From Chitinophagaceae bacterium (GTDB taxonomy: Bacteria > Bacteroidota > Bacteroidia > Chitinophagales > Chitinophagaceae), in the NCBI GenBank assembly GCA_025963615.1, contig JAOQAL010000571.1, positions 1 through 10,207 of the forward strand: 10,207 nucleotides of DNA, in the 5' to 3' direction. Below are positions 64 to 10,207 of the stretch, one piece after another. A program made the translations under genes and the position numbers. Below the pieces are notes generated by a model. The model ran no database searches, was not told where the DNA came from, and saw only the letters and a program-made list of their open reading frames with translations. Position 1 is the first letter of the stretch. Each line of letters begins with the position of its first letter.

Positions 64-77
64 ATGCTGGATGCTGG
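64..77 (+). repeat. Short 7-bp repeat, ATGCTGG family, second site
   Basis: Two perfect ATGCTGG units lie four bases beyond the TAA stop of the minus-strand amidohydrolase (82-84). It is the same unit as the array after uxaC, but relative to the adjacent gene it is in the opposite orientation (CCAGCAT on the coding strand). Two units alone would be unremarkable; the match to the longer array makes it worth recording. Bases 1-63 otherwise hold nothing I can identify. Confidence 0.55.
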
Positions 78-81
78 ATCC

Positions 82-1725
82 TTATTTCTTTTCCAGGGTG
101 GGATAGCTAATTCCCAACTGTTCCAGGTAGGTTTTATACTTGGCCGGATTGTAATAATATTTTTTCATCTGCTCCCGGTACCTGGCCATGATTTCTGTAT
201 TGAGATATGTGGCTGGCGGGTCATTGGCCGTAATAAATGGCATGTATTTTACATTCTTCGTCTGTACATTGATGAAATAATTTTTTGCACTGTCTATAAT
301 TTTAGGTGTGGTGAAAATATCAATCAAGGTCAGCGCTGTTGCTTTGGCACCAGCTAATGTGCCTTTGTGCGCAATGGGTGTTGCCATGGCAATGGCATCT
401 GCCCAATGATGACCCTTGGTGCCGGGAATATTGGCAGGATACCAGAGAACTATTGTTGGCACATTCCATGAAATATCTGCGATATCATCAGAGCCACCGC
501 CCCATGAAAATGGCGCCGAGCCTGTAATGGTATCCACTTTATTTTTCAACCCGTCAACCGGTTTTCCTTCTTCATCAATCTTGGGCGCCTCCACTAATTT
601 TTGAACGGCTGCGGCCAGTTGCCGGTCCGCATCCGTCCACACCGGCATGCCTACTTTTTTTATATTGGTGTACATGGCTTCCGCAAGGGGTTTATTAAAA
701 TGCCCGGGCCAGGCAGTACCCAAAACCTGGTATTTCATTTTGGTATCGGTCATCATCGCCGCACCCTGGGCAATCCGGAGGCCGGCATCATACACCATTT
801 TGATATCCTCGTAATTTCTTTCCCTGAAAAAATACCAGACACTGGCTTTGGATGGCACCACATTCGGTTGATCGCCACCGTCAGTAATTACATAATGCGA
901 CCGCTGGGTTGGTTTCAAATGCTCTCTTTTAAAATTCCAACCTGCATCCATCAACTCCACCGCATCCAGGGCACTCTTGCCTCTCCATGGCGCACCGGCG
1001 GCATGGGCTGCTTCCCCATCAAAAGAAAATTTTACGGATACCAGTCCATTCATGCCCGGGTCACCATAACCTACAGCAAACGCTCCACCAACATGCGTGA
1101 AAATGCAGGCATCTACATTTTTAAAATATCCGTCCCGGATATACCAGGCTTTGCTGCCCAGCAATTCTTCGGCAACGCCGGGCCATATAATAATGGTTCC
1201 GGCCATGTGATTTTTCTGCATTAATTCTTTCATTGCGATGGCCGCATAAATAATTACTGCCTGTCCTGAGTTATGACCTTCCCCATGACCTGGAGCACCT
1301 TCTACGATCGGATCTTTATAGGCAACACCCGGCTTTTGCGATGCTTTCGGGATGCAGTCAATATCACTGCCCAATGCGATCACGGGACTACCACTTCCCC
1401 ATTTGGCAAGCCAGGCAGTGGGTATTCCCGAAATACCCTTCTCCACATTGAATCCATTTTTGCTGAGTATGTCTGTGATGTATTTCGAGGTCTCAATTTC
1501 CTGAAAACCCAGTTCGCCAAAACTGAAAATCATATCGACCATCTCCTGCACATTTTTTTCTTTTGCAGAAACGGCTGCAAGCGCCTCTTTCTTCAAGCCT
1601 TCTATAAATAACGAGTCATAAGATTTTGCGGTCTGCGCTTTTGCAACGTGAAAGAAAAATAAGGCGCCCGTGATGAAAATAAAACGGGCAGCCCCTTTGG
1701 CAGCTTTTTGGTTTGTCTGTCTCAT
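82..1725 (-). CDS. Secreted M20-family amidohydrolase, AbgB-like
   Basis: This 547-residue protein is a metal-dependent amidohydrolase of the M20 peptidase family, closest in layout to the p-aminobenzoyl-glutamate hydrolase subunit B (AbgB) group. Residues 1-30 form a signal peptide: basic start, hydrophobic stretch about 13-25, and an AKA|QT cleavage site, so it should act in the periplasm. M20 landmarks are GSDID (119-123), GHGEGHNSG (146-154), the catalytic EE pair (186-187), THVGG (210-214), the dimerisation-domain segment GEAAHAAGAPWRGKSALDA (237-255) and a late GHHWAD (438-443). The frame is open back to 1887, but the first 54 residues of that version have no family similarity that I recognise and would bury the signal peptide, so I start at the ATG at 1723-1725. 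At residue 149 a Glu sits where many M20 amidohydrolases carry a Cys metal ligand. The natural substrate cannot be read from the sequence; an N-acyl amino acid or peptide is plausible. Family call is firm, substrate is not. Confidence 0.88.
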   Translation of the reverse strand: MRQTNQKAAKGAARFIFITGALFFFHVAKAQTAKSYDSLFIEGLKKEALAAVSAKEKNVQEMVDMIFSFGELGFQEIETSKYITDILSKNGFNVEKGISGIPTAWLAKWGSGSPVIALGSDIDCIPKASQKPGVAYKDPIVEGAPGHGEGHNSGQAVIIYAAIAMKELMQKNHMAGTIIIWPGVAEELLGSKAWYIRDGYFKNVDACIFTHVGGAFAVGYGDPGMNGLVSVKFSFDGEAAHAAGAPWRGKSALDAVELMDAGWNFKREHLKPTQRSHYVITDGGDQPNVVPSKASVWYFFRERNYEDIKMVYDAGLRIAQGAAMMTDTKMKYQVLGTAWPGHFNKPLAEAMYTNIKKVGMPVWTDADRQLAAAVQKLVEAPKIDEEGKPVDGLKNKVDTITGSAPFSWGGGSDDIADISWNVPTIVLWYPANIPGTKGHHWADAIAMATPIAHKGTLAGAKATALTLIDIFTTPKIIDSAKNYFINVQTKNVKYMPFITANDPPATYLNTEIMARYREQMKKYYYNPAKYKTYLEQLGISYPTLEKK

Positions 1726-1739
1726 GTGTGGGGTTTGTT

Positions 1740-1747
1740 CAAATATA
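1740..1747 (-). promoter_or_regulatory. Possible Bacteroidota -7 element for the amidohydrolase
   Basis: On the minus strand these bases read TATATTTG, an exact match to the TAnnTTTG -7 consensus of the Bacteroidota primary sigma factor. I see no clean TTTG -33 element at the expected 19-21 base spacing; the nearest run reads CTTTTC. The implied transcript would have a leader of only about 10 bases before the ATG at 1725. The motif is short and can occur by chance. Confidence 0.3.
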
Positions 1748-1911
1748 AAACAACTGGGTGGTTTTACTGAAAAGGCGAACACCAAAGAAGCTAAAAAATA
1801 TGGCCGTTGTTTTGAAGAGAATAATTGACCGTTGGAAAAATAAAACAAAGAAAGTTGAGTACCTTTCTTTAGAATTTTCAGGCTCATAGCGCAGACTCAA
1901 TTAACCCACTG

Positions 1912-1976
1912 CCGTCCAGACTATCCCTGGTTGGGTAGTTACCTGGTTTGTGCAGGCGGTTTAGCAGGGATGACGG
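1912..1976 (+). promoter_or_regulatory. GC-richer patch with two competing folds upstream of the isomerase gene
   Basis: The 298-base gap 1726-2023 has no credible gene. Most of it is A/T-rich, but about 1905-1980 is clearly richer in G+C and holds inverted repeats. A long-range helix pairs CCGTC (1912-1916) with GACGG (1972-1976) and ATCCCT (1923-1928) with AGGGAT (1966-1971), separated by a six-base bulge on the 5' side. A local hairpin, ACTA(T)CCC (1920-1927) with GGGTAGT (1933-1939), uses the same CCC and so excludes the inner helix. A small CCTG/CAGG hairpin (1942-1956) fits inside the outer fold. The patch ends 47 bases before the ATG at 2024, where a leader RNA would sit. I recognise no known riboswitch here, and strand and function are inference. 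Confidence 0.3.
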
Positions 1977-2023
1977 GGACAAACGAAAAAAAGTAACCAA
2001 TACCATTAACCTAATAATTAAAT

Positions 2024-2953
2024 ATGAAAAATTCAAGACGATCTTTTATCAGGAACAGCCTGGCAGGATCGCTGGCGGCTACTTTGTCCCCTTCATTTAC
2101 AAATGCAGCAACCGTTCAACTTAAGCCACGCATCAAGCTGAGTATTTCATCCTATTCTTACTGGCATTTTAAAGAGAAGAAATTCCCAATCGAAACGGTA
2201 ATTGATGAAGCCGCCAAATCAGGTGTAGAAGGTATTGACATACTTCATGTGCAGATGGAGAGTGAAGACAACAGGTATATCCAGCAACTAAAACGCCATG
2301 CTTATCTTAACGGTATAACTTTTACCTGCCTTTCCATTCATCAGAGTTTTGTTTCACCAGATAAAGAAGTACTCAGGAAGGAAATAGAACATACCAAAAA
2401 ATGTATTGAGCTGGCTGCAAAAATGGGTATCCCCTGCCTGAGGTTAAATTCCGGAAGGTGGAATACTATAAAGTCTTTCGATGAATTGATGAAAAACCGG
2501 GGTGTGGAACCGATCCTTCCAGGTTACACCGAAGCCGATGGATTCAAATGGTGTATTGATAGCATACAGCAATGCCTGCCGGTAGCCGAAGAATTTGGAG
2601 TTTTATTGGCACTCGAAAATCATTGGGGGTTGTGCTCCACGCCTGAGGGACAATTGCGCATTAAAAAAGCCATCGATTCGCCCTGGCTGGGAATTTTGAT
2701 GGACACCGGAAATTTTCTTGAAAATCCGTATTCGAAATTAGAGATGATTGCACCCTATACCAATTTTGTGCAGGCAAAAACTTATTATGGTGGCGGTGAA
2801 TGGTATTCCCTGGAGCTCGATTACAAACGAATAATCGACATTCTTCAAAAAGTAAATTACCAGGGCTATATCTCCCTGGAATTTGAAGGCAAGGAAGACC
2901 CATTCACCGCTGTACCAAAAAGTATTGAGATGTTAAGAGAGGCCATGCGATGA
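2024..2953 (+). CDS. Tat-exported sugar phosphate isomerase/epimerase (xylose isomerase-like TIM barrel)
   Basis: This 309-residue protein belongs to the AP endonuclease 2 / xylose isomerase-like TIM-barrel superfamily, which includes hexulose, myo-inosose and tagatose/psicose epimerases. It opens with a twin-arginine signal: SRRSFIRNS (4-12), then a weakly hydrophobic stretch and a likely cleavage after TNA (about 26-28). It is therefore probably exported folded to the periplasm, as is common for such isomerase-like proteins in Bacteroidota. The barrel runs from about residue 37 to 305. Likely metal-site residues are Glu198 (LALENH), Asp227 (MDTGNF) and Glu286 or Glu288 (SLEFEG). The strand that often supplies a His reads FVQAKTYY (248-255), with Gln at 250, so the third ligand may differ or lie at His200. 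The gene is divergent from the amidohydrolase and followed by a 115-base gap. The substrate is unknown; hexose-type sugars or keto-sugar derivatives are the usual guess for this group. Confidence 0.85.
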   Translation: MKNSRRSFIRNSLAGSLAATLSPSFTNAATVQLKPRIKLSISSYSYWHFKEKKFPIETVIDEAAKSGVEGIDILHVQMESEDNRYIQQLKRHAYLNGITFTCLSIHQSFVSPDKEVLRKEIEHTKKCIELAAKMGIPCLRLNSGRWNTIKSFDELMKNRGVEPILPGYTEADGFKWCIDSIQQCLPVAEEFGVLLALENHWGLCSTPEGQLRIKKAIDSPWLGILMDTGNFLENPYSKLEMIAPYTNFVQAKTYYGGGEWYSLELDYKRIIDILQKVNYQGYISLEFEGKEDPFTAVPKSIEMLREAMR

Positions 2954-3000
2954 TGCTATGTGTATTAAATAACTATTCATTTCACAAAAAAACATCGCCG

Positions 3001-3020
3001 AACCTGGATTTTTCCTGGTT
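3001..3020 (+). terminator. Weak imperfect hairpin after the isomerase gene
   Basis: AACC-T-GG (3001-3007) pairs with CC-T-GGTT (3014-3020) around an ATTTTT loop, leaving a T-T mismatch, and two further T residues follow directly. It lies between the isomerase stop at 2953 and the cyclase start at 3069, where a terminator would be expected. The stem is short, mismatched and has a poor U-tract, so a terminator role is tentative. The rest of 2954-3068 is A/T-rich leader with no promoter motif I can defend. Confidence 0.25.
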
Positions 3021-3068
3021 TTCAAGATAAATAGTAACAGCTGATTTTTTATTCAATAATAAGAGTGT

Positions 3069-5009
3069 ATGACCCAGACCCGTCAACTCGCTGCTATCGT
3101 GTTTACCGACATCGTCGGGTATACAGCATTAATGGGCAATGATGAACAAAAAGCATTTGTGCTGCTGAAAAAAAACAGGGAACTACAAAGGCCAATCATT
3201 GAACTATACAATGGCCGTTGGATAAAAGAATTAGGAGATGGTGTTTTGGCGAGTTTTCTCACAGTGACCGAAGCGGTGATGTGTTCCATTGAAATTCAAA
3301 CAGCCTGCGATCACATTCCCGGGTTGAAACTTCGTATCGGTATTCACCAGGGAGAAGTGGTGTTTGAAAATAATGATGTGTTTGGAGATGGCGTTAATAT
3401 TGCTTCCAGAATACAGGCCCTGGCGCCCATTGGAGGTATCTGGCTTTCCGAATCTGCCTATCGAAATATTATTAACAACAAAGAAATAAAAACAAAATTC
3501 GCTGGAAACCAGCCCTTGAAAAATGTAAAAGAACCCGTTCCCATTTATGAAATAATTATAGATCAAACCAATACTTTAACCGACAGTATGACGAAGGAAC
3601 CAACTAAAAAATCACCGGAAAAAAGTATTGCGGTGTTACCCTTTGTCAATATGAGTAATGATCCGGAGCAGGAATATTTCAGTGATGGAATGGCTGAAGA
3701 AATCCTCAATTCGCTGACCCATTTAAAGGATTTAAAAGTAGCCGGCCGTACTTCTACCTTTCAGTTTAAGGGAAAAAATATTGACTTACGGGAAGTAGGA
3801 GAAAAACTAAAAGTAAGGACCGTACTGGAAGGCAGTATCCGCAAACAGGGAAATAAAATCAGGATCACGGCACAATTAATTAATGCGGAAGATGGCTATC
3901 ATCTTTGGAGTGAAAGATATGACAGGGAGCTGGACGATATTTTCGCTGTACAGGATGAAATCGCTTTGGTAATAACTGAAAAACTGAAAGTGATATTATT
4001 AGCCAATGACCGGGAACTCATCACGCAAACATATACCCAAAATACAGAGGCCTATGAGTTATATCTCAAAGGAAAGTATGAATGGGCGAAACGCACCCGC
4101 GAAGGATTCCTGAAAAGCATTGATTATTTTAACCAGGCTATCCAGGTGGATCCAAAATACAGCCTGGCTTATGCCGGAATCGCTGACAGCTATACGTTAT
4201 TATGCGGATACCATATTCTGTCACCTGAAGCCAGTATTCCAAAAGCAAAAATGGCAGCTGAAAAAGCCATATTGCTAAATCCATCACTGGCAGAAGCTGC
4301 TGAAGCTACCGGGCATATTGAATTTCTTGTTGACCTGAATTGGGAAAAAGCAGAGGATGACTATAAAAGAGCCCTGCAACTGAATCCGAGTTTTGCAACC
4401 GCTTTTCAGCGTTTGGCGTTAATGCTGGCTACAAGGGAAAGATATACCGAAGCTCAGGAACTTATCAAAAAAGCCCAGGAACTCGAACCTCTTTCCAAAA
4501 TCATAAATACAGATGCCGGATTAATCCACTTATTGATGGGTGAAACCGATAAGGCCATTAACCAATGCGAAGAAGTTTTAGAAATCGATCCGGCTTTCCC
4601 AGTTGCCCTTTTCATCCAGGGACTTGCCTATGAACAAAATGAAAGGTTCGAACTGGCGATTGCCAATTTTAAGAAAGGGGCAAAAGCAGCCAACAATAGT
4701 CCTATTATTTTATCAGCATTGAGCCATGCATTAGCTAAAAACGGCAACCAGATGGAGGCCATCGAAATGCTGCAAAAACTCGAAAATTCACTGGACGAAA
4801 AATATATTTCTCCTTATTGCATTGCAGTCATTTGTGCCGGTCTTGGTAAAAAGGATGAGGTATTTAAATGGCTTAATAAGGCCGTTACAGGTAAATCAGT
4901 ATGGATGATCCATCTCCATTTCAGCGCCGATCCGCGGTTTAAGGAACTAAAACAAGATATGCGGTTTGTTGAAATTTTTAAGCGAATAAGAATGACGAAT
5001 GAGAAATAA
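3069..5009 (+). CDS. Class III adenylate cyclase - TolB-like domain - TPR fusion protein
   Basis: This 646-residue protein has three parts. Residues about 7-165 are a class III nucleotide cyclase domain, which should make cAMP from ATP. Both metal-binding aspartates are present (Asp14 in FTDIVGYT, Asp57 in LGDG). So are the adenine-specifying pair (Lys53, Asp103) and the Asn110/Arg114 of VNIASR, which support the transition state. The set favours adenylate over guanylate cyclase and suggests an active enzyme. Residues about 185-310 (from SIAVLPFVNMS) match the TolB-like/CadC-type amino-terminal domain often found after such cyclases. Residues about 325-600 are TPR helical repeats, with recognisable units ending in VDPKY, LNPSL, LNPSF, LEPLS and IDPAF, probably a protein-binding sensor. 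No transmembrane segment is visible between domains, so the protein looks cytoplasmic. Its last codons (from 4991) lie in a 7-base tandem repeat that also supplies the stop. The stimulus and cAMP target are unknown. Confidence 0.9.
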   Translation: MTQTRQLAAIVFTDIVGYTALMGNDEQKAFVLLKKNRELQRPIIELYNGRWIKELGDGVLASFLTVTEAVMCSIEIQTACDHIPGLKLRIGIHQGEVVFENNDVFGDGVNIASRIQALAPIGGIWLSESAYRNIINNKEIKTKFAGNQPLKNVKEPVPIYEIIIDQTNTLTDSMTKEPTKKSPEKSIAVLPFVNMSNDPEQEYFSDGMAEEILNSLTHLKDLKVAGRTSTFQFKGKNIDLREVGEKLKVRTVLEGSIRKQGNKIRITAQLINAEDGYHLWSERYDRELDDIFAVQDEIALVITEKLKVILLANDRELITQTYTQNTEAYELYLKGKYEWAKRTREGFLKSIDYFNQAIQVDPKYSLAYAGIADSYTLLCGYHILSPEASIPKAKMAAEKAILLNPSLAEAAEATGHIEFLVDLNWEKAEDDYKRALQLNPSFATAFQRLALMLATRERYTEAQELIKKAQELEPLSKIINTDAGLIHLLMGETDKAINQCEEVLEIDPAFPVALFIQGLAYEQNERFELAIANFKKGAKAANNSPIILSALSHALAKNGNQMEAIEMLQKLENSLDEKYISPYCIAVICAGLGKKDEVFKWLNKAVTGKSVWMIHLHFSADPRFKELKQDMRFVEIFKRIRMTNEK

Positions 5010-5039
5010 GAAATGAGAAATAAGGAATGAGAAAGTTAG
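4991..5039 (+). repeat. 7-bp tandem array, AATRAGR family
   Basis: Six consecutive 7-base units with consensus AATRAGR start at 4991, 4998, 5005, 5012, 5019 and 5026, followed by a decayed unit AAGTTAG at 5033-5039. AATGAGA occurs three times; the others differ at one or two positions. The first two and a half units are coding and give the cyclase its last residues (MTNEK) and TAA stop (5007-5009); the remainder is non-coding. Confidence 0.85.
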
Positions 5040-5044
5040 GGCAA

Positions 5045-5100
5045 AACACTCACCATTCACTACTCACCATTCACCATTCACTATTCACTATTCACCACCC
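5045..5100 (+). repeat. 7-bp tandem array, ACYAYTC family, copy 1
   Basis: Exact 7-base periodicity: ACCATTC at 5052, 5066 and 5073, ACTACTC at 5059, ACTATTC at 5080 and 5087, flanked by decayed units AACACTC (5045-5051) and ACCACCC (5094-5100). The array fills most of the gap between the convergent cyclase and uxuA genes and runs straight into a palindrome at the uxuA stop. The same unit family recurs at 9306-9340. Confidence 0.88.
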
Positions 5101-5114
5101 GATAGCTATCGGGT
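5097..5114. repeat. Perfect 18-bp palindrome overlapping the uxuA stop
   Basis: ACCCGATAGCTATCGGGT is a perfect inverted repeat with no spacer. As RNA it could form a six- to seven-base stem with a tight loop. On the minus strand it spells the last uxuA codons ACC CGA and the stop TAG (5106-5108). No T-run follows on either strand, so a classic intrinsic terminator is not supported, although a role as a bidirectional end structure between convergent genes is possible. From memory, the core CCCGATAGCTATCGGG is a dispersed intergenic element in other Bacteroidota; I could not check this here. Confidence 0.75.
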
Positions 5115-6281
5115 CACCATTAAACTTCTGCTCACTCCCAATTCCAGCCCTCTCAATTCTGCCAATCCTTTTAATCTTCCGATAGCGGAATATCCGGCGT
5201 AGGTCTTTTTATTCAGATCGTCCAGCATCTGGTGACCATGATCAGGCCGCATCGGAATGGATTGTTTTCTTCTGCGCATGAGCAGCACCACTTCCTTCAT
5301 GATCTCATACATATCGGTATCACCGGCAAGGTGATCGGCCTCATAAAAATTTCCCTCGGCATCTCTTTTGGTATTGCGCAGGTGCAGGAAATGAACATGA
5401 TCACCAAATCGTTTCAACATTTTTAGCAAATCATTATCAGCCCTCACCCCGAAGGAGCCGGTACAAAAACATAGTCCGTTGGCTGGTGATACCACGGCAC
5501 TCAACAAATCAGCCGCATCCTGCTCCGTGCTCATGATCCGCGGCAATCCTAATACTGAATAAGGAGGGTCATCCGGGTGGATAGCCATCTTCAAACCACA
5601 TTCTTCCGCCACAGGAACCACCTGCCGGAGAAAATAAAAAAGATGCTGTTTGAGTTTTGCCGCATCAATTCCATCATAGGTCTTCAACGCTATTAATACC
5701 TGCTCCAGGGTAAATGATTCATCACTGCCGGGCAGGCCCAGCATCATGTTGCGAAAAAGAAACTCCTTTTCTGCTTCAGACATTATTTCAAATTTCGCCT
5801 TGGCTTTTTTCATTTCTTCCGGTGAATAATTTTTTTCCGCACCCGGCCTTTTTAATAAAAACAAATCAAAAGCTATAAAAGCGATCCGATCAAAATATAA
5901 GCCCGTACTGCCATCGGGCAGCCTGTAAGAAATATTGGTACGCAACCAATCCAGGATCGGCATAAAATTATAGGTAACTACTTTTAATCCGCAGGCGGAT
6001 ACATTACGCAGGCTCGTTTTATAATTTTCAATCCATTCCCGGTAATTACCGGATTGCTTTTTAATGTCCTCGTGTACCGGCATGCTTTCAATCACCGTCC
6101 AGTCCATGCCGGCAGCTTCAATAACATTTCTTCGCTTACTGATCTCCTCTATAGTCCATACTTCCCCCACGGGAATATGATGAAGCGCTGTCACAACGCC
6201 AGCGCAACCGGCCTGGCGGATATCGGCAAGGCTAACCGGGTCATTCGGCCCGTACCATCGCATAGTTTGATGCATCAACAT
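5106..6281 (-). CDS. uxuA: Mannonate dehydratase UxuA
   Basis: UxuA dehydrates D-mannonate to 2-keto-3-deoxy-D-gluconate in the cytoplasm, the third step of glucuronate catabolism. The amino end [18 protein letters not shown] and the following [14 protein letters not shown] (29-42) are hallmarks of the family. The TIM-barrel metal site is visible: His235 (AIHPDD), Cys273 (FCTGS), His300 (FLHLRN) and Asp347 (RPDHGH), matching the Cys/His/His/Asp set known for Mn2+-dependent mannonate dehydratases. The length, 391 residues, is normal for the family. The first ATG (6279-6281) gives [11 protein letters not shown]. The third residue is also Met (6273-6275), and starting there gives MHQTMRWYG, which aligns better with the E. 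coli start as I remember it (MEQTWRWYG); both remain possible. The gene is divergent from uxaC and convergent with the cyclase. Its final Thr-Arg and TAG lie inside a palindromic repeat. Confidence 0.97.
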
Positions 6282-6340
6282 GAGCGCAATTTAATTTTTT
6301 AATCCTTTTTATTATAAGTTATCTTGCTATTCTGAAAATT
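6282..6340. promoter_or_regulatory. Divergent uxuA / uxaC control region
   Basis: Only 59 very A/T-rich bases separate the start codons of uxuA (minus) and uxaC (plus), so both promoters and any shared operator must lie here or inside the genes. On the plus strand TATCTTG (6320-6326) is an imperfect match to the Bacteroidota -7 element, lacking one T. ATAAGTTAT is a small palindrome overlapping it. Neither is strong enough to name an operator. The shared spacer suggests joint control of the two hexuronate enzymes. Confidence 0.45.
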
Positions 6341-7783
6341 ATGGCAAAAGATATTCAATCTCCCGGAACAATTAAGTGGCTGCACGAGGATTTCCTGTTA
6401 AAAACAAAAACAGCGCGACAACTATATCATGATTTTGCTGAGCGCCTGCCCATCATTGATTACCATAATCACCTTTCACCGCAACAAATCGCTGATGATA
6501 GTTGCTTTGAGAACCTGACGCAGGCCTGGCTTTATGGCGATCATTACAAATGGCGGGCGATGCGCACCAACGGCATTGCCGAAAAATACTGCACCGGAAC
6601 AGCCAGTGACTTTGAAAAATTTGAACAATGGGCGGCTACCGTTCCGTATACCTTACGAAATCCTTTGTACCACTGGACGCACCTGGAACTGCAGCGATAT
6701 TTTAATATCAGTGACACGTTGTCACCGCAAACTGGAAAGAAGATCTATGATGAAGGCTCTGAAAAATTGCAATCCAACGAATACAGTGTACGCAACTTGC
6801 TGCGCAAAATGAACGTAAAAGTTTTGTGCACTACGGATGACCCCGTTGATTCCCTGGAACATCACCAGAAAATAAAAAAGGATGGCTTTGAAATAAAAGT
6901 ATTACCTGCTTTTCGTCCCGACAAAGCCATGGATGTGGAAAATGCTGATACATTCAATCAATACGCCGGCAAGCTGGAAAAGGCCGCCGGTATTTCAATC
7001 AGTAATTATAAGGATTATCTCGCCGCACTGAAAGACCGCCACGATTATTTTGCATTGAATGGCTGCAGGGTTTCTGATCATGGCCTTGCTGAAATATCCG
7101 CGGATGATTATACGGATAGTGAAATAGAAAATATTTTTTCAAAAATCCGCCTGGGCGCTTCTTTGACCCACGAAGAGAAACGAAAATTCAAAAGTGCCAT
7201 GCTGGTTGTATTCGCGGAATGGGATCATGAAAAAGGCTGGATCCAGCAATATCACCTTGGCGCCTTACGGAATAACAATTCCAGAATGCTGCATCAACTG
7301 GGGCCGGATACCGGATGGGACAGTATCGGCGATTTCAGCTATGCACAACCGCTGGCTAAATTTTTAAATCGTTTGGACAATAATAACAAACTCACCAAAA
7401 CAATCATCTACAATCTCAATCCCGCGGACAATGAAATGATGGCAACGATGATTGGAAATTTTAATGACGGAAGCATTACTGGAAAAATTCAATGGGGCGC
7501 TGCCTGGTGGTTTCTTGATCAGAAAGACGGTATCCGCCGGCACCTGGACACCTTATCCAATATGGGTTTAGTAAGCCGTTTTGTTGGTATGCTTACTGAT
7601 AGCCGCAGCTTTCTTTCCTTTCCGCGACATGAATATTTCAGAAGAATACTTTGTAATGTTTTTGGGAAAGAGATAGAAGACGGCGAACTACCGAATGATG
7701 TTGAATGGATCGGAAGCGTGATACAGGATATTTGCTACAATAATACGAAGGGGTATTTTGGGTGGGGAGATGATGGGTGGTAG
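6341..7783 (+). CDS. uxaC: Glucuronate (uronate) isomerase UxaC
   Basis: UxaC interconverts D-glucuronate with D-fructuronate and D-galacturonate with D-tagaturonate in the cytoplasm, the entry step of hexuronate catabolism. The 480-residue protein belongs to the uronate isomerase branch of the amidohydrolase superfamily. Visible landmarks are the metal-binding HxH in IDYHNHLSP (His42, His44), WRAMRTNGI (71-79), CTTDDP (163-168), QYHLGALRNNN (303-313), YNLNPADNE (357-365) and LTDSRSFLSFPRHEYFRR (418-435). Length is close to the family norm of about 470. The carboxyl end reads YFGWGDDGW, whereas relatives I recall stop soon after YFGF or YFAIEL. The extra residues coincide with the edge of a 7-base repeat that also holds the TAG stop. 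The gene is divergent from uxuA and followed after 63 bases by the hexuronate transporter, probably in one operon. Confidence 0.97.
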   Translation: MAKDIQSPGTIKWLHEDFLLKTKTARQLYHDFAERLPIIDYHNHLSPQQIADDSCFENLTQAWLYGDHYKWRAMRTNGIAEKYCTGTASDFEKFEQWAATVPYTLRNPLYHWTHLELQRYFNISDTLSPQTGKKIYDEGSEKLQSNEYSVRNLLRKMNVKVLCTTDDPVDSLEHHQKIKKDGFEIKVLPAFRPDKAMDVENADTFNQYAGKLEKAAGISISNYKDYLAALKDRHDYFALNGCRVSDHGLAEISADDYTDSEIENIFSKIRLGASLTHEEKRKFKSAMLVVFAEWDHEKGWIQQYHLGALRNNNSRMLHQLGPDTGWDSIGDFSYAQPLAKFLNRLDNNNKLTKTIIYNLNPADNEMMATMIGNFNDGSITGKIQWGAAWWFLDQKDGIRRHLDTLSNMGLVSRFVGMLTDSRSFLSFPRHEYFRRILCNVFGKEIEDGELPNDVEWIGSVIQDICYNNTKGYFGWGDDGW

Positions 7784-7825
7784 ATGCTGGATGCTGGGTG
7801 CTGGATACTGGATGGTGGATGAGTA
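7770..7825 (+). repeat. 7-bp tandem array, ATGCTGG family
   Basis: Units in exact 7-base register: ATGATGG (7770), GTGGTAG (7777, containing the uxaC stop), ATGCTGG (7784 and 7791), GTGCTGG (7798), ATACTGG (7805), ATGGTGG (7812) and a decayed ATGAGTA (7819). The first two units code for the last residues of UxaC; the rest fill most of the 63-base gap before the transporter. The same ATGCTGG unit occurs twice at 64-77, next to another gene end. An open frame reading through the array is a by-product of the repeat, not a gene. Confidence 0.85.
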
Positions 7826-7846
7826 AGAATAATAATAAACTAACGA

Positions 7847-9154
7847 ATGCAACAGATTGGAAAATACAGGTGGACTATTTGTGGTCTTTTGTTCTTTGCC
7901 AGTACGATCAATTACCTGGACCGGGCGGTAATCAGTTTCCTGAAATCAACATTGACGGTTGAAATGCATTGGAATGATGGGGATTATGCCAATGTTGAAA
8001 TTGCTTTTAAAATAGCCTATGCGGCCGGCCTGTTGTTATCAGGCCGTGTGATTGACAAACTGGGAACGAAAATCGGTTATGCATTGGCGACAGGTCTATG
8101 GAGCCTTTCCGCTATCGCTCATTCATTGGCTACCAGCGTACTGGGTTTCGGCGTGGCCCGGGCCGCCCTGGGAGTAAGTGAAGCTGGTAACTTTCCTGCT
8201 GCTATAAAGACCGTTGCGGAATGGTTTCCGAAAAAAGAAAGGGCGTTTGCTACCGGCATTTTTAATTCCGGCACCAGCATTGGTGCAATCCTGGCGCCGC
8301 TTACGGTACCTTTTATTAATAAACAATGGGGCTGGCAATGGGCCTTTATCATTACCGGTTCTTTCGGCATTATATGGCTGGTACTCTGGTTTATTTATTA
8401 CGAGGTTCCCGATAAGCAAAAGAAATTAACACAGGCTGAATTTGATTATATCCACAGCGATAAAGATGAAGGACCACCCACAACTGAAACAAATTCACCC
8501 AGATTATCCTGGGGAAAATTATTGACCTACAAGCAAACATGGGCCTTTGCGCTGGGAAAACTATTGACTGATCCGATCTGGTGGTTTTATCTTTTCTGGC
8601 TACCCGATTTCCTCGAAAGTCAATATGGATTGAAAGGAACTCAATTAGTATTACCAACGGTATTGGTTTATACGATGTCGACTTTTGGCAGTGTTGGTGG
8701 TGGCTGGCTCCCCTTAAATTTGATAAAGAAAGGCTGGGCGGTATTCCGGGCCCGCAAAACATCCATGCTTATTTATGCCGTTTGTGTAGTGCCTGTTTTC
8801 TTCGCGCAGATTTTAGGGTCGGTGGATATGTGGCTGGCCGTACTCGTTATAGGCATTGCCGCCTCGGCTCACCAGGCCTGGAGCGCCAACATTTTTACAA
8901 CGGTGTCGGATATGTTTCCCAAGAGTTCTGTTGCATCGGTCACGGGCATTGGGGGAATGTTTGGAGCCGCCGGCGGCATCCTGCTTTCCGCTGCGGTACA
9001 AAAAAACCTATTTGTTCACTACCGGGCTATAGGCAAAATTGAAGTGGCCTATTATATCATGTTCGCTGTATGTGCCGGGGCTTATATTATTGCCTGGTTG
9101 GTAATGCACGTGTTGGCACCTAAAATGAAACGGATTGATGCGGAAATTGAGTAG
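7847..9154 (+). CDS. exuT: ExuT-type hexuronate MFS transporter
   Basis: This 435-residue protein is a 12-helix major facilitator of the anion:cation symporter family, to which E. coli ExuT belongs; it should bring glucuronate and/or galacturonate across the inner membrane with protons. Supporting motifs are NYLDR (22-26) in the first helix, the loop 2-3 segment GRVIDKLGTKIGYA, ARAALGVSEAGNFPAAIK and AEWFPKKERAFATGIFNSG, all typical of this family. The LGTKIGYA and EWFPxKER stretches closely resemble ExuT as I remember it. Hydrophobic helices alternate with short loops across the whole length, with a longer charged central loop near residues 185-220. The start ATG at 7847 puts the first helix close to the amino end, as expected. 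It follows uxaC by 63 bases, mostly repeat. The exact hexuronate cannot be settled from sequence; another sugar acid is the main alternative. Confidence 0.9.
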   Translation: MQQIGKYRWTICGLLFFASTINYLDRAVISFLKSTLTVEMHWNDGDYANVEIAFKIAYAAGLLLSGRVIDKLGTKIGYALATGLWSLSAIAHSLATSVLGFGVARAALGVSEAGNFPAAIKTVAEWFPKKERAFATGIFNSGTSIGAILAPLTVPFINKQWGWQWAFIITGSFGIIWLVLWFIYYEVPDKQKKLTQAEFDYIHSDKDEGPPTTETNSPRLSWGKLLTYKQTWAFALGKLLTDPIWWFYLFWLPDFLESQYGLKGTQLVLPTVLVYTMSTFGSVGGGWLPLNLIKKGWAVFRARKTSMLIYAVCVVPVFFAQILGSVDMWLAVLVIGIAASAHQAWSANIFTTVSDMFPKSSVASVTGIGGMFGAAGGILLSAAVQKNLFVHYRAIGKIEVAYYIMFAVCAGAYIIAWLVMHVLAPKMKRIDAEIE

Positions 9155-9181
9155 TGTATCAGTTTCAATCATTAAGAATAT

Positions 9182-9232
9182 TTGGCTAAAGCCAATCAAT
9201 CATCATTCCGGTTCCTCTGCTCTAAAGAGCAG
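9182..9232. repeat. Pair of TAAA-loop hairpins, REP/REPIN-like
   Basis: Two hairpins share the loop TAAA. The first is TTGGC-TAAA-GCCAA (9182-9195; it can also be read as TTGGCT-AA-AGCCAA). The second is CTGCTC-TAAA-GAGCAG (9217-9232), extendable by a wobble and a C-G pair. They are 21 bases apart in the gap between the convergent transporter genes. Similar paired short hairpins are dispersed in Bacteroidota genomes as I remember them, which would fit repetitive extragenic palindromes moved by Y1/REP-associated transposases; no transposase is present here. Either hairpin could also act as a transcript end, though neither is followed by a strong T-run. Confidence 0.5.
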
Positions 9233-9252
9233 GGCAAGTTGACAAATCGAGA

Positions 9253-9276
9253 ATGCGATCCCAATAGTTATCGCAT
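9253..9276. repeat. Inverted repeat ATGCGAT / ATCGCAT
   Basis: A perfect 7-bp stem, ATGCGAT (9253-9259) with ATCGCAT (9270-9276), encloses a 10-base spacer. It lies 20 bases after the TAAA-loop hairpins and may be part of the same composite element or a bidirectional transcript end between the convergent genes. The remaining bases of the 9155-9339 gap show no coding potential. Confidence 0.45.
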
Positions 9277-9305
9277 AAATACATATTCTTGTAGACCCTA
9301 TTCAA

Positions 9306-9340
9306 GACATTCACCATTCGCTACTCACTACTCACCTTAT
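9306..9340 (+). repeat. 7-bp tandem array, ACYAYTC family, copy 2
   Basis: Units in 7-base register: GACATTC (9306), ACCATTC (9313), GCTACTC (9320), ACTACTC (9327) and a decayed ACCTTAT (9334-9340). This is the same unit family as 5045-5100. The last unit touches the TGA stop (9340-9342) of the minus-strand permease, so in both copies the array lies directly downstream of a minus-strand gene, reading GARTRGT on the coding strand. Confidence 0.8.
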
Positions 9341-10207
9341 CAGCCATCCTGTTCTCCTATCATTTTATTAACATGCCTTGTTTCACTCATGAACACATAT
9401 ATAAGGAGTGAGATAAAAATAGATCCCGTGATATACCAGTAGAAATAAGATTCATGGCCAAGCTCTTTAAACCAAAGTGCGATATACTCGGCAGTGCCAC
9501 CAAAAATAGCTACTGTTAATGCATACGGCAACCCAACACCTAAAGCCCTTACCTCAGCGGGGAAAAGTTCTGCTTTAACAACCGCATTGATACTGGTATA
9601 GCCACTGACGATGATCAATGACAGCATCATCAGTGCAAAAATTTCCCAATTGGATACCGCATGACTTAACGCGGTAAGCAGCGGTACTGTAAATAAAGTT
9701 CCCGCTATACCGAATGCGAGTAATAGCGGGCGGCGGCCTATTTTGTCGGAAAGACGACCGAAAACGGGCTGCAGCAATGCGAACAACAGCAATGAAAAAA
9801 ATGATAACAATGTAGATTGCCCTTTTGATACACCTGTTGTATTTACAAGAAATTTCTGCATGTAAGTCGTATAGGTATAAAACGCCAGTGTCCCACCCAG
9901 GGTTAGTCCTGCTACGGTAAGAATAGCTTTTGGATGCTTCAGCAATTCCGCCATGGCGTTTTTCTTTATACCCGGTTTTTGTATCACTTCCGTAAAGGCT
10001 CTGGTTTCATCAAGGTGGCGACGGATATACAAGGCTATAACCGATAACATGGCGCCAATGACAAAAGGAATGCGCCAGCCCCATTCATGCAATTGCTTAT
10101 CCGTAAGGAGCCATAACTGCAGTATCAACTGAATCCCTAAAGCCACTAACTGACCGCCTACCAGCGTAACATACTGGAAACTTGAATAAAAACCCCGATG
10201 ATCGCGA
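9340..10207 (-). CDS. MFS permease, metabolite:H+ symporter (MHS) family, C-terminal part
   Basis: The reading frame stays open to the window edge and its amino-terminal part lies outside. The first residues visible, read from the edge, are HRGFYSSFQYVTLVGGQL, a stretch conserved in the MHS branch of the major facilitator family (relatives of ProP, KgtP, PcaK and citrate permeases). A GTG at 10144-10146 is an internal Val, not the start. Further marks are GWRIPFVIGA, RRHLDETRAF (the MHS LxET signature), GRLSDKIGRRPLL (MFS motif A in the second half) and PAEVRALGVGLPYALTVAIFGG. About 289 residues are visible, covering roughly the last eight helices. The substrate is probably a dicarboxylate, other organic acid or osmolyte taken up with protons; sequence alone cannot choose. 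It is convergent with exuT and may belong to a different operon. Confidence 0.88.
   Translation of the reverse strand, partial: RDHRGFYSSFQYVTLVGGQLVALGIQLILQLWLLTDKQLHEWGWRIPFVIGAMLSVIALYIRRHLDETRAFTEVIQKPGIKKNAMAELLKHPKAILTVAGLTLGGTLAFYTYTTYMQKFLVNTTGVSKGQSTLLSFFSLLLFALLQPVFGRLSDKIGRRPLLLAFGIAGTLFTVPLLTALSHAVSNWEIFALMMLSLIIVSGYTSINAVVKAELFPAEVRALGVGLPYALTVAIFGGTAEYIALWFKELGHESYFYWYITGSIFISLLIYVFMSETRHVNKMIGEQDG

Follow-up and report, generated by a model that had tools for sequence, protein, structure and literature searches.

The stretch of DNA analyzed here, referred to as the window, is the whole 10,207-base contig JAOQAL010000571.1 of a Chitinophagaceae bacterium, taken from a draft genome of 4.78 Mb in 835 contigs that is 79% complete. 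It carries arrays of 7-nucleotide (nt) tandem repeats, termed heptamer arrays, at the ends of its genes. In two array-rich relatives, designated G055 and G021, period 7 is dominant, the arrays lie between genes, crowd around stop codons, often occur as inverted pairs, and belong to few unit families. By Pfam, the genes of the window encode an M20 peptidase, a TIM-barrel protein, a cyclase/TPR protein, UxuA, UxaC, and two MFS transporters. Arrays, associated repeats, and genes are located as follows, with the tools Tandem Repeats Finder (TRF) and a period scan given where they identified an array.

63–79: GATGCTG repeated for 2.4 units (ATGCTGG family), 2 nt past the stop codon of the M20 peptidase gene (TRF score 34)
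82–1722, minus strand: M20-family peptidase gene (Pfam PF01546/PF07687; start codon as used for the Pfam query; stop codon 82–84)
3069–5009, plus strand: gene for a protein with a guanylate cyclase domain and TPR (Pfam; stop codon 5007–5009)
4990–5034: GAATGAG/AAATAAG heptamer array over the 3' end and stop codon of the cyclase/TPR gene (TRF at periods 7 and 14; period scan 4990–5031)
5050–5100: TTCACCA/TTCACTA heptamer array (GTGAATRG on the minus strand), 5 nt short of the uxuA stop codon and facing the array at 4990–5034 (TRF, period scan)
5097–5114: perfect 18-bp palindrome ACCCGATAG/CTATCGGGT, i.e., ACCCGATAGCTATCGGGT, between this array and uxuA and containing the current uxuA stop codon (repeat search)
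5106–6281, minus strand: uxuA, mannonate dehydratase (PF03786, 7.7e-126)
6341–7783, plus strand: uxaC, glucuronate isomerase (PF02614, 3e-205; stop codon 7781–7783)
7769–7821: GATGCTG/GATACTG/GATGGTG heptamer array across the uxaC stop codon (TRF; period scan 7776–7821)
7847–9154, plus strand: MFS transporter gene (PF07690; stop codon 9152–9154)
9148–9156: TGAGTAGTG, over the stop codon of the plus-strand MFS gene, an inverted match to 9326–9334 with 9-nt arms that are 100% complementary
9308–9335: CATTCAC/CACTACT heptamer array, 4 nt from the stop codon of the minus-strand MFS gene (TRF, period scan)
9340–10206, minus strand: MFS/sugar transporter gene, truncated by the contig end (PF07690/PF00083)

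The period scan, which was our own, scored a run where at least 17 of 21 positions equaled the base p positions further on. Across periods 4–15, it returned four runs of period 7 (4990–5031, 5050–5100, 7776–7821, and 9308–9335), three of period 14, which is a multiple of 7, and none of any other period. First-order Markov shuffles of the window (n = 300) gave a single period-7 run in total. Strict heptamer repeats at four sites had been described in an earlier note on this DNA, and both scans confirm such arrays at about 4990–5034, 5050–5100, 7769–7821, and 9308–9335. The further stretch at 63–79 does not exceed chance on its own, with a TRF score of 34 against 34 and 32 for period-11 and period-8 matches elsewhere in the window, but it is counted as an array because its unit belongs to a family that recurs genome-wide. 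Across the genome, RTGCTGGATRCTGG gave 143 matches against none for the reversed control, and CAYTCACYAYTCAC gave 23 against two for its control.

The relatives G055 and G021 were picked for their many pattern matches and were sampled in even steps. The complete, single-contig genome of G055 (400 kb sampled) held 109 period-7 runs, while no other period between 4 and 13 exceeded 12, and G021 (400 kb) held 66 against at most four of any other period. Four period-7 runs and none of another period were found in G000 (13 contigs, 89,781 bases, from which two hit-picked and five N contigs were excluded), and six against at most one in G004 (200 kb). No period-7 run occurred in the 200 kb scanned of G018. 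Among 80 titled loci (679,647 bases), 21 runs had period 7, four had period 8, and one each had periods 9 and 10. In 20 further relatives, with 40 kb sampled from each, period 7 led with nine runs over period 9 with five, period 8 with four, and period 11 with three, a small lead from which the preference appears slight in array-poor genomes. The predominance of period 7 that the earlier note expected thus stands for the array-rich genomes and is much reduced outside them. Neither of the outcomes that the note had named as speaking against it, other periods being as common or an even spread over intergenic DNA, was seen in the array-rich samples. Period 8 was a distant second in the G055 sample (loci L076–L095) with 12 runs against 109, and four more runs of this period occurred in samples from genomes without SbcD.

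This kind of repeat is real, patchily abundant, and very different in number between close relatives. The CAYTCAC pattern was present in 53 of 117 family genomes, and within one genus 187 matches were counted in one member and eight in another. Likewise, GATGACRGATGAC was matched 512 times in G021 and once in its congener G133, and among 296 genomes from the phylum, 107 had matches to a GTGA-type pattern. The reversed-pattern control is not a clean null in these counts, because it is itself a period-7 pattern, and some of its matches look like real arrays built from other units.

Array bases in the two array-rich relatives are intergenic for 4254 of 4443 in G055 and 3498 of 3644 in G021. Of their 175 runs, 165 were placed in gaps, 53 of them convergent, 95 tandem, and 17 divergent, at densities per kb of 2.1–2.6 in convergent gaps against 0.4–0.7 in divergent gaps. 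In tandem gaps, the distance to the stop codon is 10 nt or less for 34 of the 95 arrays and the distance to the start codon for five, where uniform placement expects 7.7. In convergent gaps, 30 of 53 arrays come this close to an end, compared with an expectation of 7.7, and in divergent gaps none of 17 (1.2 expected). The statement that all arrays sit at 3' ends and never at starts therefore describes the window and is too absolute for its relatives, given the arrays in divergent gaps and the five near starts. In the window itself, the array at 7776–7821 also lies upstream of a gene, as 25 nt separate its far end from the following start codon at 7847.

How far stop codons are preferred as such depends on the DNA assumed to be closed to arrays. 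If 0, 30, 60, or 100 nt upstream of each start are barred, the number expected near stops in tandem gaps is 7.7, 11.2, 17.1, or 33.9, compared with the 34 observed. The last of these is a generous expectation, since barring 100 nt pushes the arrays of short gaps to the stop. For the 78 arrays clear of genes, barring 60 nt predicts 12.1 at no more than 10 nt from a stop codon, and 20 were counted there. Stops thus rank far above starts, but the tandem excess vanishes with about 100 nt barred, and a pure choice of stops as targets in tandem gaps was rejected because the placement is then wholly expected, though not with 60 nt barred. Of the 152 arrays whose skew is not zero, 117 have the G-rich strand pointing inward; a further 13 arrays have zero skew. 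The G-rich strand is the coding strand for 81 of the 105 arrays that lie nearest a stop and have non-zero skew. This is a tendency in the relatives, and in the window the array at 63–79 departs from it, being C-rich after its stop.

Pairs were defined as the outermost two arrays of gaps holding two or more. In G021, 19 of 20 such pairs are inverted-similar, none is direct, and one is neither, while in G055 the corresponding numbers are 13, three, and 15 of 31. In both genomes, the mean pair similarity tops all 300 permutations of partners. The inverted arms are 12–80 nt apart in 17 of the 20 G021 pairs. In some gaps of this genome several unit types follow one another in mirrored order, as at locus L129 with CGTGAG outside and AGTGAAT inside. 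A first test of this order (12 G021 pairs, combined p 8e-4) chose the phase favoring the observed order and was biased upward, and nine of 20 pairs in G021 and 29 of 31 in G055 are too short or too unlike for an order test. Inverted pairing in the window is faint, consisting of the 9-nt match of 9148–9156 with 9326–9334, which is so short that it could be of chance origin, and of the two facing arrays within 4990–5100, which have different units. A single insertion bringing both arms is not favored, as the arms in one G021 gap flank what by eye is a terminator-like hairpin; in another, the arms are of unlike unit families. By eye, nested palindromes (GTGCGAGACC..., GTCGCC...GGCGAC) make up similar blocks in the loops between the arms at L122 and L133 of G021, and such a block may be a small mobile element. 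At L117, L118, L122, and L134 of G021, units bearing AGCT are partly self-complementary, so that one array on its own can make up a palindrome with neither gap nor loop.

The 105 arrays of G055 fall into 37 exact unit classes, where random heptamers give 96–100, and the 60 arrays of G021 into 22, where random heptamers give 58–60. The earlier note had taken a shared period with unrelated units as the sign of a common process rather than the spread of one sequence. Unrelated units do show a similar geometry, but the same few units recur within each genome, and with few families repeated at many loci both spread and a shared process apply. Among four window units, TCACCAT matches a unit of both G055 and G021 exactly and CTACTCA a unit of G021, while neither genome has a unit identical to GATGCTG or AATGAGA. 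By chance, 21 (G055) and 13 (G021) of 300 random heptamers find an exact match; likeness within one change is uninformative, as 235 and 182 of the 300 come that close. A bias by replication strand was rejected: the matches listed gave a one-sided impression, but when counted directly in the sampled stretches they fell on both strands. GATGAC was counted 41 and 18 times on the two strands in G021.

Inverted pairing and displaced stop codons are features that the earlier note did not contain. The UxaC protein of the window is 80% identical to that of the congener G059 and at most 72% identical to titled records among the matches listed, the best being from Chitinophagaceae. In G059, uxaC ends in YFGW followed by the stop and has no array, while in the window YFGW is followed by GDDGW and the stop comes five codons later, with the array over it. 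Similarly, uxuA ends in SRSL and the stop in G059, while in the window MVTR is added and the stop comes four codons later, these residues being encoded by an ATGGTGA heptamer together with the palindrome. The simplest reading would be that the arrays arrived in the lineage of the window. In 33 of the 80 titled loci that were checked, some UxaC proteins stop right after the motif, one from a Ferruginibacter metagenome-assembled genome also at YFGW. Two of the 33 loci, both from Niabella, have arrays within 220 nt after uxaC, one of which begins 6 nt before the stop and consists of other units. The uxaC gene of G059 (locus L097) ends in TTTTGGATGGTAA, which is like the unit GGATGGT of the window array, a likeness that is possibly an array seed or else chance. 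At another site, the same convergent gap measures 259 bp with arrays in G021 and 79 bp without arrays in G133, and no period-7 run was found in 56,841 bases of G133.

Tandem heptanucleotides are known from cyanobacteria as short tandemly repeated repetitive (STRR) sequences, with which the present arrays have the tandem heptanucleotides in common. Mrazek et al. 2007 reportedly found heptamers to be the most abundant class of long simple sequence repeats (LSSR) in most of the genomes covered there and proposed slippage as their origin. As 7-nt tandem units beyond chance, the present arrays fall into the heptanucleotide LSSR, except for 63–79 taken alone; pairing and stop geometry of LSSR are absent from the available part of the citing text.

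In Xanthomonas, GGGAATC repeats show a heptamer excess and a placement at 3' ends over stops on the coding strand; convergent inverted pairs number 70 and 75 in two of its genomes and are few in Nostoc (PMC4692102). There, GGGAATC and GGGGA(C/T)T repeats are described as scarce between divergent genes, different in length between relatives, and composed of a single, G-quadruplex-forming unit type; heptanucleotides of Calothrix are mentioned as well (PMC4692102). The present arrays have in common with these repeats period 7, an intergenic location near or over stops, a tendency to a G-rich coding strand, and, in G021 and G055, the convergent inverted pairs. Unlike them, as far as described, they include many units without repeated G-runs, have several units per genome that are sometimes mixed in one array, and occur in another phylum. 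None of the window units is of the G-quadruplex type GGGNATC, and GATGCTG, AATGAGA, and TTCACCA contain no repeated run of three G.

TAACTGA direct repeats are described from Beggiatoaceae, cyanobacteria, and five Bacteroidetes, with polymerase slippage cited, and in the main species they lie mostly just before starts, some sets being located between or just after stops (PMC4679880). They are sporadic across phyla and mixed with other heptamers, and some close relatives have shorter, array-free gaps (PMC4679880). Both kinds of repeat have period 7 and are intergenic, sporadic, and mixed in heptamers, but placement at start codons is not shared (five of 95 near a start against 34 near a stop in G055 and G021), and TRF found no TAACTGA array in the window. 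Other listed papers on heptamers concern single loci, for example in Haemophilus. For the 7-nt step, a published guess is the length of DNA contacted by the polymerase, and both sources leave the bacterial heptamer excess without an established mechanism (PMC4679880, PMC4692102). Inverted, multi-unit heptamer arrays at Bacteroidota stops were not found in the open literature, a search outside of which preprints and most subscription papers lie. The arrays are not a new class, since an excess of heptamers, their location at 3' ends, and their pairing in convergent gaps had been reported before for Xanthomonas and in part for Nostoc. The repeats are of a known kind, whose geometry recurs here with many unrelated units in Bacteroidota, and for which we infer the mechanism.

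With moderate confidence, the arrays are read as heptanucleotide minisatellites that grow by slippage in 7-nt steps and are tolerated at gene ends, with hairpin copying or recombination preserving the likeness of the arms. Strand slippage during replication or repair would enlarge the arrays, and hairpin-type template switching, or recombination between arrays of the same family, would keep the arms similar. Gene ends would tolerate arrays as neither coding nor promoter function constrains the DNA there. Since 7 is not a multiple of 3, a heptamer bearing a stop closes all three frames within 21 nt, and an array could thus overwrite a gene end. This last step is weakly borne out: among arrays overlapping a stop, all three frames are closed in the sense direction in 23 of 31 and in the antisense direction in nine, which is partly true by construction, and among arrays 11–60 nt after a stop in 16 of 27 against four.

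Several observations weigh against this reading. Few unit families recur at many loci per genome, while slippage alone predicts that each locus has its own unit. For arrays 0–10 nt after a stop, frame closing does not differ between sense (15 of 33) and antisense (12), and frame closing as the cause of stop placement was rejected on this result. Stop crowding in convergent gaps is left unexplained by promoter avoidance, and gene positions were called with a simple codon model of our own. In a fairer test of mirrored unit order, two of 11 G021 pairs were below 0.05 with a combined p of 0.004, a weak signal (G055: one of two pairs, p 0.06). The absence of arrays in G059 could have come about through loss, other uxaC relatives among the 33 loci end in unrelated longer tails, and all comparisons are between species or congeners only.

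A function at the 3' end is a rather unlikely alternative to growth by slippage, in which the arms would form an RNA or DNA stem that ends, insulates, or protects transcripts, and selection would keep the pairing. The inverted arms flanking the junction at short spacing in G021 and the partly mirrored unit order there are consistent with it, as is the window region 4985–5116, which folds better than shuffles (z -2.2, with four of 200 shuffles as good), but part of this fold is supplied by the separate 18-bp palindrome. A scan for intrinsic terminators, i.e., a GC-rich stem followed by a T-run, placed no site on the window arrays (11 sites against 12.0 in shuffles), and the arrays were rejected as such terminators. 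By eye, one G021 loop has its own terminator-like hairpin, and G133 carries such a hairpin in the corresponding, array-free gap. Furthermore, the 15 unlike pairs of G055 and the existence of relatives with few or no arrays argue against selected pairing. Chance or an assembly artifact has a negligible probability; the window does come from a fragmented, incomplete draft, but the complete genome of G055 is rich in such arrays, and shuffling hardly produced them.

A dedicated machine that writes or disperses heptads, either a templated copying enzyme or a mobile element placing units at stops, is held to be improbable. The like geometry of unrelated units, the few families at many loci, the large differences inside genera, and the same placement and convergent pairs reported for Xanthomonas favor it, but no such machine was found among the Y1/RAYT transposases examined, reverse transcriptases not having been searched for. 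Repetitive extragenic palindromic (REP) elements and bacterial interspersed mosaic elements (BIME), which occur with REP-associated tyrosine transposases (RAYT), are many-copy intergenic inverted repeats near gene ends and are not known to have a 7-nt tandem structure. Y1/RAYT-type transposases (PF01797, E <1e-15) were detected in 25 of 31 array-rich against 40 of 86 other genomes (p 0.0014). However, array-rich genomes are larger (median 5.2 against 3.95 Mb), and within three size classes the association has p values of 1.0, 0.06, and 0.19. Around 20 Y1 genes of array-rich genomes (L287–L306, 84,440 bases), where REP/BIME would flank the RAYT gene, there was no array; acquired DNA may be without arrays. 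Y1/RAYT transposases were rejected as spreaders due to both results. Loss of the hairpin nuclease SbcCD, which would let inverted heptamer arrays persist, is highly improbable as a permissive cause. At least two matches of CAYTCACYAYTCAC occurred in none of 14 SbcD-positive against 39 of 103 other family genomes (p 0.0045), but the association failed with a set of three patterns that included the reversed control and a cut-off of five (2 of 14 against 41 of 103, p 0.08), in 40-kb samples of ten genomes per group (three against six runs), and across 296 genomes of the phylum, where at least five GTGA-type matches were found in 15 of 97 SbcD-positive and 36 of 199 other genomes (p 0.63).

With their many units and their hold on gene ends in Bacteroidota, the arrays pose the question of their origin. 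It is doubtful, though conceivable, that one process in Bacteroidota, Xanthomonas, and cyanobacteria writes steps of precisely 7 bases at stops, mirrors them across the junction, and homogenizes a few units throughout the genome, either through a heptad-templated copying enzyme or a DNA polymerase that snaps back with a fixed 7-nt stroke. The contrast within genera between hundreds of matches and almost none, the facing arrays, and the moved stops make the origin testable. If the growth of arrays by slippage at tolerant gene ends is true, heptamer arrays would be a route by which gene ends change.

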